The notes beneath the pieces were generated by a model. It did no database searches. It worked only from the letters and a program-made list of their open reading frames with translations, and was not told the origin of the DNA. A program made the translations under genes and the position numbers. A DNA stretch of 64,000 nucleotides from Candidatus Nitrosotenuis uzonensis. Lineage in GTDB: Archaea; Thermoproteota; Nitrososphaeria; Nitrososphaerales; Nitrosopumilaceae. Shown piece by piece: positions 12,636 through 35,597 of this stretch (positions are counted from its first letter, which is position 1; every line of letters starts with the position of its first letter). The stretch is taken from contig NZ_CBTY010000011.1 of assembly GCF_000723185.1 (NCBI RefSeq), positions 101,403 through 165,402 on the forward strand, written 5' to 3'.

Positions 12636-12673
12636 ATTGGAAATTTTAAAAACAATCAGACTTGATTTCCCAC

Positions 12674-13099
12674 ATGAGAAAATTAGTCATAGCTGCGGTG
12701 GCAGTCATCATAGTAATCGTTTTGGGTCTTATTCTTACCCCGTCTGAAAAAACTGCAAGAACTCAGATTTACCATGTAAGACTTGCAGATCCGGACATGT
12801 ACAAGGACGGGATATATTCAGAAACATTCCAGATCAAAAAGGGCATATATGAATTCAGATTTGTCCCAAATGGCGATAGCCCTCAGACACTATCGATTGC
12901 GCTAAAGGGGCCCACGTTTTCTTTTGCCGAAGATTTCAAGCTTGAAGGAACACCACACGATACTGGAATATCAAGATACTATACCTGGGAGTATATTGGA
13001 GAAAGTACGATTCAAGTTCCAGATGATCAACAACTTGAGATTCTCATTAATCCGCATGGAAACTTGTTAGGGCCGGTTTCCGTATACTTGATAGAATAA
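12674..13099 (+). CDS. membrane-anchored small beta-domain protein
   Basis: A 141-residue protein of unknown function. The ATG at 12674 begins a single hydrophobic helix (MRKLVIAAVAVIIVIVLGLIL) without an obvious cleavage site, so it is probably an N-terminal anchor. The remainder is rich in aromatic and beta-forming residues (FQIKKGIYEFRFVPNGDSPQ, YYTWEYIGESTIQVP) and ends GNLLGPVSVYLIE, resembling a small beta-sandwich. No Cys pairs or metal motifs. A TTG four codons upstream is an alternative start. Likely outside the cytoplasmic membrane; binding partner unknown. Confidence 0.65.
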   Translation: MRKLVIAAVAVIIVIVLGLILTPSEKTARTQIYHVRLADPDMYKDGIYSETFQIKKGIYEFRFVPNGDSPQTLSIALKGPTFSFAEDFKLEGTPHDTGISRYYTWEYIGESTIQVPDDQQLEILINPHGNLLGPVSVYLIE

Positions 13100-13100
13100 A

Positions 13101-13205
13101 CGGCGGCGTGGCCCCAAGCGCAGAACATGAGAGAATACCTCTCGCTCCCTTTACGCCGATGCGTGTTATGGGACACAAACTAGTTCTACTGGGCCACGCG
13201 TCCTT
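13101..13205 (+). ncRNA. candidate structured RNA of about 100 nt
   Basis: A GC-rich island in AT-rich intergenic DNA that can fold into a closed multibranch shape. Closing stem: GCGTGGCCC (13106-13114) with GGGCCACGC (13191-13199), 9 of 9 paired. Inside: hairpin GAGAG-AATAC-CTCTC (13129-13143), possibly extended by AGC/GCT; hairpin TCCC/GGGA plus ACGC-CGAT-GCGT (13146-13173); and a weak CTAGT/ACTGG hairpin. It has no T-loop sequence, so it is not a tRNA, and it lacks 5S rRNA or RNase P signature segments. Strand is a guess; the inverted stems allow either. Confidence 0.4.
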
Positions 13206-13365
13206 TAGTCGATAGGATTTATGTCCTTTCGCATCAATTCTTATAGGAATTTATGATATTTAAGAATTAGTGTGATTTTTTACAAAAAAGAACCGCATAT
13301 CGTTAAAAAATTTTTGCCTGTTCTTCCAACAAAGCAATTTATGATTTGCCAAAAAGAATACGGTG

Positions 13366-14106
13366 ATGAAGCTTGGCGGAAAGGTTGCATTGGTCACAGG
13401 GGCAAGCCGTGGAATTGGAAAGGCTATTGCAGAGATGTTTGTACGTGAGGGTGCCAGTGTAGTAATAACATCAAAAGATCCGAAAAGGCTCAAAAGTACT
13501 GCAAAAGAGATTAGCGCATTTGCTGTTATTGCAGACATAAGAAAGGATATCCAGGTGAGGAATGCAGTAAAAACGGCCATAGATAAATTCGGCAGGCTCG
13601 ACATACTTGTAAACAATGCCGGTATTTTTCCCAAAATCAAAAAGCTCCATCTGATATCCGAGAAGGAATGGAATGATGTGATCGATGTGAACCTCACAGG
13701 ACAGTTCCGGTTCACAAAGTACGCCATTCCGCACCTACAAAAACACGGAGGCGTCATAATCAACATATCATCTGATGCAGGACTCAAGGCGTACGAGAAT
13801 TTTAATGCCGACGCGTATACTGCGTCAAAGGGTGCACTTGTTTTACTCACAAAATCATGGGCTCTCCAGTATGCAAAAGACAAGATCCGGGTCAACTGCA
13901 TATGTCCGGGAGTTGTCGAAACAGATATGACGCAAGGATTTCTTTCCAGCTTGGCAGACAGGGAGATTCTCAACGCTGAATATCCAATTGGAAGAATAGG
14001 TACGGTAGAAGATGTTGCCAAGTCTGCGCTGTTCTTTGCATCCGATGACTCTTCATGGGTTACTGGTGCAGTGCTTCCACTAGATGGCGGCGAGTCCGCA
14101 AAATAG
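13366..14106 (+). CDS. short-chain dehydrogenase/reductase, FabG-like
   Basis: A 246-residue NAD(P)-dependent oxidoreductase close in shape to 3-oxoacyl-ACP reductase and glucose dehydrogenase SDRs. Motifs: TGASRGIGKAIAEMF (residues 11-25), NNAGIFPK (about 85), catalytic YTASKGALV (Tyr-x-x-x-Lys, about 147-155), PGVVETDMTQG and the C-terminal VTGAVLPLDGGES. The Arg/Lys residues after the first strand (ITSKDPKRLK) suggest NADP preference. The ATG at 13366 is used; a GTG directly before it is possible. Physiological substrate unknown; archaea of this group lack a standard fatty acid synthase. Confidence 0.9.
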   Translation: MKLGGKVALVTGASRGIGKAIAEMFVREGASVVITSKDPKRLKSTAKEISAFAVIADIRKDIQVRNAVKTAIDKFGRLDILVNNAGIFPKIKKLHLISEKEWNDVIDVNLTGQFRFTKYAIPHLQKHGGVIINISSDAGLKAYENFNADAYTASKGALVLLTKSWALQYAKDKIRVNCICPGVVETDMTQGFLSSLADREILNAEYPIGRIGTVEDVAKSALFFASDDSSWVTGAVLPLDGGESAK

Positions 14107-28566: not shown

Positions 28567-28641
28567 TGGGGCCGGTGGGATTTGAACCCACGATCTCTAG
28601 CACCCCAGGCTAGCATCTTAACCAAGCTGGACTACGGCCCC
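28567..28641 (-). tRNA. tRNA-Pro (anticodon GGG)
   Basis: A full cloverleaf: acceptor stem GGGGCCG/CGGCCCC, D-arm with GGTTAAGA-type loop, anticodon stem CTAGC/GCTAG around the loop CTGGGGT (anticodon GGG), and T-arm GTGGG-TTCAAAT-CCCAC. The discriminator base is A at 28567, CCA is not encoded, and there is no intron. It is read from 28641 down to 28567. Confidence 0.96.
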
Positions 28642-33887: not shown

Positions 33888-35597
33888 TTACATCTCGCCC
33901 ATGCCGCCCATATCCATTCCACCCATTCCTCCCATTCCAGGCATTCCTCCCATGCCTCCCATACCGCCCATTCCAGGCATTCCGCCTTCTGGGCCTCCGG
34001 GTGGTCCGGATTTGGCAATAGCAATCACATCATCAATTCTTAAAATCATGCATGCTGCTTCCGTTGCAGCGGAGACTATCTGGTTCTTTACTGCCAGTGG
34101 CTCTACTATGTCGCTTGTCTTCATGTTGCCCACCTTGGATTTCATTACATCGATTCCGGTCCATTTTTCGCCCTTGAGCTGCTTTGAGCGGAGATTTGTT
34201 AGTGTGTCTATTGGGTCCATCCCCGCATTCTCTGACAGTGTTAACGGTATTACTTCAAGCGAGTCTGCAAATTTTTCCACCGCAAGCTGCTCCCTGCCTT
34301 CCATCGATTTTGCCCAGTTACGCAGCCTTGTTGCCGCAAACGTTTCAGGTGCGCCCCCGCCTGCAACGATGGACGGGTTTTCCATGACATCTTTTACCAC
34401 CATTAACGCATCGTGAACTGACCTTTCGACCTCGTCGACCACTCTTTGGGAACCGCCCCTCAGAAGTAATGTGACTGCTTTTGGATTCTTACATCCTTCC
34501 ACAAACACCCATCTGTCCTCCTCGATCTTTCTTTCTTCAACAAGCTGAGCTGAGCCAAGATCCTTTTCAAACAGATCATCAAGGTTTGTAACTATTCTTG
34601 CACCAGTGGCTTTAGCAAGTTTTGCCATGTCGCTTTCTTTTACACGTCTTACCGCTAGAATTCCAGCCCTTGCCAGATAATGCTGAGCCATGTCATCAAT
34701 TCCCTTCTGACATAAAAGGACGGTAGCACCAGAACCGACAACCTTGTCAACCATATTCTTGATCATTCTGTTTTCCTCATCCAAGAATGTCTTCATTTGT
34801 TGCGGGTTTGAGATGTTAATCTTGGCATCAAATTCGGTCTTGTCTATTTCAAGCGCCGTGTTTATGAGTGCTATTTTTGCTTCGCTGATTTTCTTTGGCA
34901 TTCCACCATGAACTACTTCCTTGTCCAGCACAATTCCTTCAACTAAAATAGAATCCTTCATAGAGCCACCTGCCTTTTTCTCCACTTTGACATCGTCTTG
35001 ATCAACGATGAATTTCGTGCCTTCCTTTTCAGCAACTGCAAGCACTGCTTTCACTATCAGGTCAGCAAGATGATCAGAGTCCTTTCTTACCAGCTTTGTC
35101 TGCATTGAGGTTCTTGCAATCTTTGAGAGGATGTTTTTGTCGTTTGCAGTTACCTCCTCGGCTATTTCTTTTAAAAATTGTAATACCTTTTTTGAGGCCT
35201 TTCTGTAGCCGTCCACTATTATTGTAGGATGGACATCTTGGTTTATCAGCGATTCCGCATTTTCAAGCAATGCGCCAGCCAGTATGACTGCGGATGTTGT
35301 CCCATCACCTACTTCGCTGTCTGTGGTCTTGGAAATCTCCACTAGCATTTTTGCTGCAGGATGCTGCACATCGATTTCTTTGAGAATAGTAGCACCATCG
35401 TTTGTAATTGTGACATCTCCCAATGAGTCAACTAGCATTTTGTCCATTCCCCTTGGGCCAAGACTGCTGTGAACTATCTCAGCTATGATTTTGGCTGCAG
35501 CTATGTTGTTTTTTTGTGCTTCGCGGCCCTTGCTTTCTGTGGCACCTTCTTTTAGTAAAACTACAGGCAGACTACCTTTGGGTACTTGAACACTCAT
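33888..35597 (-). CDS. thsA: thermosome (group II chaperonin) subunit
   Basis: ATP-driven protein-folding chamber of the archaeal cytosol, related to eukaryotic CCT. The 569-residue protein has [20 protein letters not shown] (residues about 43-62), [22 protein letters not shown] (ATP site), and the C-terminal VAGGGAPE and GIDV. The tail is a Gly-Met-rich repeat ([15 protein letters not shown] and so on), typical of thermosomes and of GroEL tails. A strong TATA box (GTATAAAAGG, 35621-35630) and a GAAGAAAATTTCTTC palindrome precede the start. One other subunit gene would be expected elsewhere. Confidence 0.96.

Follow-up and report, generated by a model that had tools for sequence, protein, structure and literature searches.

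A small structured RNA of Nitrosopumilaceae with a conserved, presumably leaderless, nine-codon reading frame at its front

Introduction

Does a GC-rich and strongly foldable stretch of about 100 nt in the genome of the archaeon Candidatus Nitrosotenuis uzonensis encode a new structured RNA and, if so, from which strand, over what length and with what mode of action? The stretch lies in the DNA that we analysed as a whole (64,000 nt of the contig NZ_CBTY010000011.1; hereafter, the window). The organism belongs to the Nitrosopumilaceae, the family of Nitrosopumilus and Nitrosarchaeum, genera that rank among the most abundant ammonia oxidizers in the sea and in soil. A preliminary description made from the letters of the window had regarded positions 13101 to 13205 as a candidate folded RNA, starting from 13,100.

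The structural elements of that description were all retrieved: the perfect 9-bp closing stem (13106-13114 with 13191-13199), the hairpin with a 5-nt loop (13129-13143), a second, imperfect, internal hairpin (13146-13173) and the local GC peak (0.58 at 13100-13199, as against 0.38 in the sequence immediately preceding and 0.29 in that immediately following). On either strand, none of 200 dinucleotide shuffles folds as well as the 105-nt stretch (z -3.9 for the plus strand and -3.4 for the minus strand), and the fold is not explained by any overlapping long coding gene.

Fold and compensatory changes

Comparison of the aligned copies indicates a three-way-junction fold that is maintained by compensatory changes, and that consists of two stems, closing and inner, and of two hairpins, one of which is topped by the strongly conserved GAGG-NNN-UCUC. 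The compensatory changes, for which the preliminary description had suggested looking, occur on both sides in 27 of the 31 pairs over 86 aligned copies (303 cells, as against 65 in shuffled and at most 69 in slid alignments), copies which are not independent because of paralogues and common ancestry. In the same alignment, which was fitted to a covariance model and thereby leans towards it, 91.8% of the cells in paired columns form pairs. The alignment of a close set of 40 sequences, which was not fitted to the model, exhibits both-side changes in 14/31 pairs, the observed values being reached by 0 of 500 shuffles. Furthermore, seven members folded singly, including the window copy, gave z values of -3.2 to -6.8.

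Read on the minus strand, the closing stem (helix 2) has its 5' arm at 13191-13199 (97.6% of cells paired; both-side changes in 6/9 pairs) and its 3' arm at 13106-13114, whereas the inner stem (helix 3) pairs GUAGAAC at 13183-13189 (95.7% of cells paired; both-side changes in 7/7 pairs) with GUUCUGC at 13120-13126, both 3' arms being placed by alignment and covariation. The variable hairpin (helices 4 and 5; 13153-13164) has an ACGC/GCGU core in the window copy; helix 5 is 91.8% paired, with both-side changes in 4/4 pairs, and helix 4, a single pair, is 82.7% paired. The conserved hairpin (helix 6; 13129-13143), GAGAG-GUAUU-CUCUC, has a stem that is invariant in the 40 sequences, and over the 86 copies it is 95.3% paired with both-side changes in 4/5 pairs.

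A further conserved hairpin inside the reading frame described below (helix 1) was suggested by the single folds, and we rejected it: only 73.9% of its cells pair over the 86 copies, as compared with 91.8-97.6% for the multi-pair helices outside the frame, and its A-C cells outnumber its G-U cells by 20 to 10. As a side observation, the conserved hairpin at 13129-13143 of the minus strand holds the motif GAGG(U), a partial complement of the 16S rRNA tail of the same genome, GGATCACCTCCT.

Strand, promoter and ends of the RNA

We regard it as almost certain, from the comparison of sequences, that the structured RNA is real and that it is encoded on the minus strand. First, G-U cells outnumber A-C cells in the minus-strand reading, by 50 to 25 over all helices (37 distinct sequences) and by 40 to 5 when helix 1 is omitted. 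Second, the aligned copies remain conserved beyond 13205 up to about 13263, and this extension reads, on the plus strand, CAT, 22 nt and then TATTTA in nearly all copies. Third, a TATA-like 7-mer occurs upstream in 86/86 aligned copies, and an ATG follows it at exactly 22 nt in 71/86. A plus-strand RNA, as implied by a start at 13,100, was therefore ruled out by the G-U/A-C counts and the conserved minus-strand TATA box with its near-fixed spacing.

In the window copy, the TATA box (TTAAATA on the minus strand, 13257-13263) stands 22 nt before the start codon. The candidate transcription start at 13235 (minus strand), i.e., the purine right before the ATG, or the A of the ATG, was placed from the TATA spacing. 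This spacing is compatible with transcription starting at, or a few nt from, the start codon; as a weak yardstick, a survey upstream of 115 ORFs gave 18 TATA-like boxes, 17 of them at least about 20 nt away from the start. A stricter TATA-like box occurs only twice in the window, and the composite TTAAATA-N22-ATG-N24-TRA occurs in the window's genome only at its two copies of the RNA (the reversed-pattern control gave 0).

The probable 3' end, or U-rich terminator, lies at 13091-13100 (minus strand) and overlaps the last codons of a convergent gene. TTTT occurs soon past the end of the model in 65 of 85 copies, as compared with 9 in an interval just upstream of the RNA, and the window copy has TTTATT only, without TTTT. 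The GC-rich fold of 13101-13205 is thus, as judged from the aligned sequences, the 3' part of a larger minus-strand RNA gene spanning about 13235-13095, with its own TATA promoter and a predicted length of about 135-145 nt. The span first proposed was too short, in that it cut off the 5' 30 nt with their presumably leaderless nine-codon frame.

The nine-codon reading frame

These 30 nt (13205-13234, minus strand) hold a presumably leaderless mini-ORF of nine codons and a TAA stop (M R K D I N P I D), whose frame is kept in relatives. The comparisons suggest that a nine-codon frame at the front of the RNA runs into the conserved fold, an arrangement for which we found no match among known RNA families. 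Nine codons and a stop follow the promoter-proximal start in 83 of the 86 copies, a count for which a start ATG, GTG or TTG was permitted 19-26 nt from the TATA box, a freedom that favours nine-codon frames. Ranking starts by TATA distance before frame length gave nine codons in 76/86 copies, as compared with 83 when nine-codon frames were preferred. When the start was anchored at exactly 22 nt from the TATA box, frame 0 had nine codons in 69/86 copies, whereas frames 1 and 2 scatter, their commonest lengths covering just 39/86 and 14/86 copies. The three exceptions to nine codons have no ATG or GTG at the usual place (L112), a lost stop (L132) or eight codons (L126).

A second set of copies, chosen by the hairpin pattern and not by the ORF, had nine codons in 75 of 79 cases and eight in the other 4; this set consists of 80 loci minus one without its 5' end (L164), 70 of them distinct, and shares many genomes with the first set. 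The distance from the stop to the closing stem is 3-5 nt in all 83 nine-codon copies, and 4-5 nt in 40/40 close relatives.

The 83 frames start with ATG (77) or GTG (6), end with TAA (55), TGA (20) or TAG (8), and encode 51 different peptides, of which MPKDIIPID is found 11 times and MRKDINPID 7 times. Changes were reconstructed by parsimony on a tree of the 3' parts alone (85 of the 86 copies, 82 distinct, L126 being omitted for its codon deletion), the sites being treated independently and the start-position freedom of 19-26 nt being applied. The stop was preserved in 19 of 20 inferred changes versus 9.6 expected (binomial p about 1e-5). Nonsense changes within the ORF numbered 3.5 versus 7.1 expected, and the very few changes of the start codon comprised 3 kept and 2 lost, versus 1.3 and 3.7 expected. 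When restricted to the 83 ORF-positive copies, a set conditioned on having the ORF, the test gave 18 stops kept and 0 lost. By contrast, synonymous changes (70.2 versus 71.1 expected) and nonsynonymous changes (214.2 versus 209.9 expected) revealed no selection at the level of the peptide, in a test with little power on a peptide of this length. Together, these data point to a frame whose length, start and stop are preserved while its peptide drifts, and we think it likely that the mini-ORF is translated.

Occurrence in archaea

As far as tested, the RNA family appears to be confined to the Nitrosopumilaceae. In BLASTN searches with positions 13090-13220, all 16 same-genus genomes matched (best E 1e-20 or lower), and the window's own genome proved to carry a second copy of the RNA. 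At E <= 1, 50/101 genomes matched, including the own genome, the matches outside the genus being short (up to 38 query bases). A covariance model (R1), run on the class with stricter filters that lose weak matches, was found at E <= 0.1 in 200 of 400 genomes and 18 of 82 genera, all genomes among the matches listed belonging to the window's family. In 40 chosen genomes of 21 other genera of the family, R1 matched 34 at E <= 1, two of these only weakly (E 0.12 and 0.74), and the match was convincing in 17 of the 21 genera. Convincing copies numbered 1-6 per genome, with one more at E 0.06 in G381. A wider model (R2) matched 28/40 family genomes at E <= 0.1, in a set enriched for earlier non-matchers.

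Using the DNA pattern of the inner stem and hairpin on one genome per species (84,980 species), we obtained 95 stretches. The 80 listed came from Nitrosopumilus, Nitrosarchaeum, Nitrosotenuis, Thaumarchaeota and similar names, a few being labelled just archaeon or Nitrososphaeraceae, and all 80 score as the RNA at E <= 0.001, including three that are truncated by the end of a contig.

Several candidates were discarded. In 40 genomes of other families, R2 gave only 4 matches, at E 0.2-0.51 and partial or weak, which we treated as chance, as were the seven early BLAST leads (L025-L031; at most 15.1 bits), the best of which (L026, E 0.0065) covered the hairpin alone. In the own genome, R1 detected the two copies and two additional weak matches (10.7-11.5 bits); the latter were discounted, one being the opposite strand of the window copy. 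Five viral contigs match a short hairpin pattern, yet they reach only 10.0-13.0 bits (E 0.06 or worse).

The genomes without a convincing copy are G020, G041 and G056 (genus g5), G023 (g8), G026, G044 and G059 (g11), and G029 (g14). Since these four genera lack a convincing copy, the RNA is not essential across the whole family; in g5, whose genomes measure only about 0.8 Mb, the RNA may have been lost through genome reduction.

A possible mechanism and its alternatives

What would a frame of fixed length, set against a fold, be good for? The reading that we favour, while standing halfway between belief and doubt, is that of a leaderless, translation-gated small RNA, as deduced from the sequences. 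The ribosome would load without a leader on the 5'-terminal AUG, read the nine codons and terminate when its leading edge has advanced about 5-8 nt into the 9-bp closing stem. Translation would open the fold, which would re-form once the ribosome departs, so that the working part would be the act of translation and not the peptide.

The position of the ribosome edge is taken from the leaderless initiation complexes of Saccharolobus, for which toeprints (reverse transcriptase stops) are reported at +16/+17 (PMC11698992). By this measure, when the stop codon occupies the A site, the ribosome would extend to about nt 40-41, and the stem begins at about nt 34-36; with the edge inside the closing stem, translation should open most of it. 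The output would most likely be in trans, since no gene recurs consistently downstream of the copies, and the RNA would then be a translation-gated regulatory RNA, either ribosome-sensing or ribosome-occupying. For such a switch acting in trans, itself deduced from the geometry, our confidence is at best even and may be somewhat lower. That the frame is kept for its length alone, so as to place the ribosome at the foot of the fold as a mechanical switch or a ribosome counter, with the peptide as a by-product, we propose tentatively, leaning towards doubt.

The main rival is ribosome trapping, which we judge unlikely. In such a trapping or hibernation RNA, the 5' AUG would capture a ribosome, the stem would slow or hold it, and the RNA would act on ribosomes. 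The anatomy of frame and fold would be identical, the GAGG(U) of the conserved hairpin is partly complementary to the 16S tail (GGATCACCTCCT), and small RNAs of Haloferax are reported to be ribosome-occupied yet untranslated (PMC12482152). However, the conserved stop codon suggests that termination is wanted rather than arrest; moreover, part of the GAGG is in a stem, and only a short stretch matches the 16S tail.

If the nine-residue peptide were itself the product of a dual-function sRNA or micro-peptide gene, with the structure as a stabilizing 3' UTR or a base-pairing regulator, one would understand that the frame is preserved in 83/86 copies and that certain peptides recur. The existence of 51 different peptides and the neutral balance of synonymous and nonsynonymous changes make this improbable.

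An ordinary non-coding structured RNA, whose AUG and stop would be side effects of a conserved 5' sequence, has common ancestry in its favour, together with the near invariance of some bases of the ORF region in the close set. Nevertheless, three types of stop interchange at one place, the stop was kept in 19/20 changes, the set selected without the ORF agrees (75/79), and frames 1 and 2 scatter, all of which render this explanation decidedly improbable. The preliminary proposal of a new structured RNA of roughly 100 nt is well supported by covariation, conservation and the lack of an Rfam match; given the conserved, presumably leaderless, nine-codon frame in the 5' 30 nt, the RNA is probably not purely non-coding.

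A leader-peptide attenuator controlling a downstream gene, likewise a short ORF followed by a strong structure, is very improbable. As counted with a simple ORF caller (70 aa or more), the nearest downstream ORF is on the opposite strand in 70 of the 86 copies, on the same strand in 15 and absent in 1, and the peptides have no run of a single amino acid. Nine Nitrosotenuis copies, including the second copy of the own genome, do have a same-strand ORF 77-114 nt downstream, but a separate TATA-like box stands between the RNA and that gene (the reverse strand of the shared ATTTAAAT).

Finally, a bidirectional terminator or antisense RNA of the convergent gene of about 145 aa would fit the RNA end that abuts or slightly overlaps this gene in many genomes, and can practically be dismissed, in that many copies that share the promoter, ORF and fold are located elsewhere.

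Relation to known RNAs

Similarly to a translation-gated RNA of the kind we favour, several known systems combine short frames and structure. SgrS and SR1 are dual-function (coding and regulatory) sRNAs; like the present RNA they are small and structured and carry a short ORF, whereas here the ORF is presumably leaderless, located at the 5' end and fixed at nine codons, with no selection seen on the peptide. As in tmRNA, a short frame inside a structured RNA would engage ribosomes; unlike tmRNA, the RNA has no tRNA or tmRNA match (the latter being absent with both ARAGORN and Rfam 15), and its frame begins at its own 5' AUG. Leader-peptide attenuators share the principle that the position of the ribosome on a short ORF would decide the folding of the RNA after it, and differ by the consistent downstream gene and the amino-acid run, which the RNA and its peptides lack.

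Searching the whole window with Rfam 15 at the gathering score gave a single match, a tRNA at 28567-28641, and none at the fold, in agreement with the preliminary description, which had seen no known family there; the only tRNA that ARAGORN finds in the window is likewise elsewhere. A relaxed search of 12950-13400 gave three matches (E 4-8.5), none over 13091-13205 and all far under their gathering scores, one of them spanning the ORF and promoter region at 13209-13263. Among the best-ranked papers of the literature searches, covered mainly as titles and abstract openings and with few subscription papers, none describes the RNA. Transcripts of it might be among those reportedly collected in a 2009 study of ocean psRNAs.

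Among archaeal RNAs, the ribosome-occupied, untranslated sRNAs of Haloferax volcanii (PMC12482152) are likewise small RNAs tied to ribosomes, whereas a defined ORF and a covarying fold characterize the present family; the likeness is one of description. Tan1, a structured RNA of unknown role from marine Euryarchaeota (PMC5069720), differs by its size (229 nt) and its phylum, and is set apart here by its published description, not by sequence.

The family, often multi-copy and convincing in 17 of the 21 other genera tested, has no entry in Rfam 15. If our reading is true, a frame kept for its length and not for its sequence would provide clear evidence of translation itself serving as the function of a small-RNA ORF, and the paralogues in many genomes would represent a regulatory system of ammonia-oxidizing archaea, and a new kind of RNA gene.

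Neighbouring genes and other features of the window

The convergent neighbour (12662-13099, plus strand; about 145 aa) has a hydrophobic stretch at its N-terminus and no Pfam match for 12674-13096. A similar-sized gene occurs at this place, beside the RNA copy, in many other genomes. The downstream neighbours nevertheless vary: 12 of them, inspected by eye, include CorA, a radical-SAM enzyme, aroA, aroC, TFB and a small heat-shock protein.

The copies L115, L116, L124, L134 and L137 form a divergent subfamily situated, on the opposite strand, between an ORF of about 365 aa and one of 422-438 aa; in L115 these two resemble aroC and aroA. In four of the five members of the subfamily, the top of the hairpin reads GAGGAGAATGC, which looks like a Shine-Dalgarno site with a start codon after it.

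Elsewhere in the window, two direct repeats of 94 nt each (768-861 and 915-1008) are 77% identical and stand 147 nt apart, and tandem 9-nt repeats, which may encode the Gly-Met tail of a chaperonin, occupy 33905-33985.
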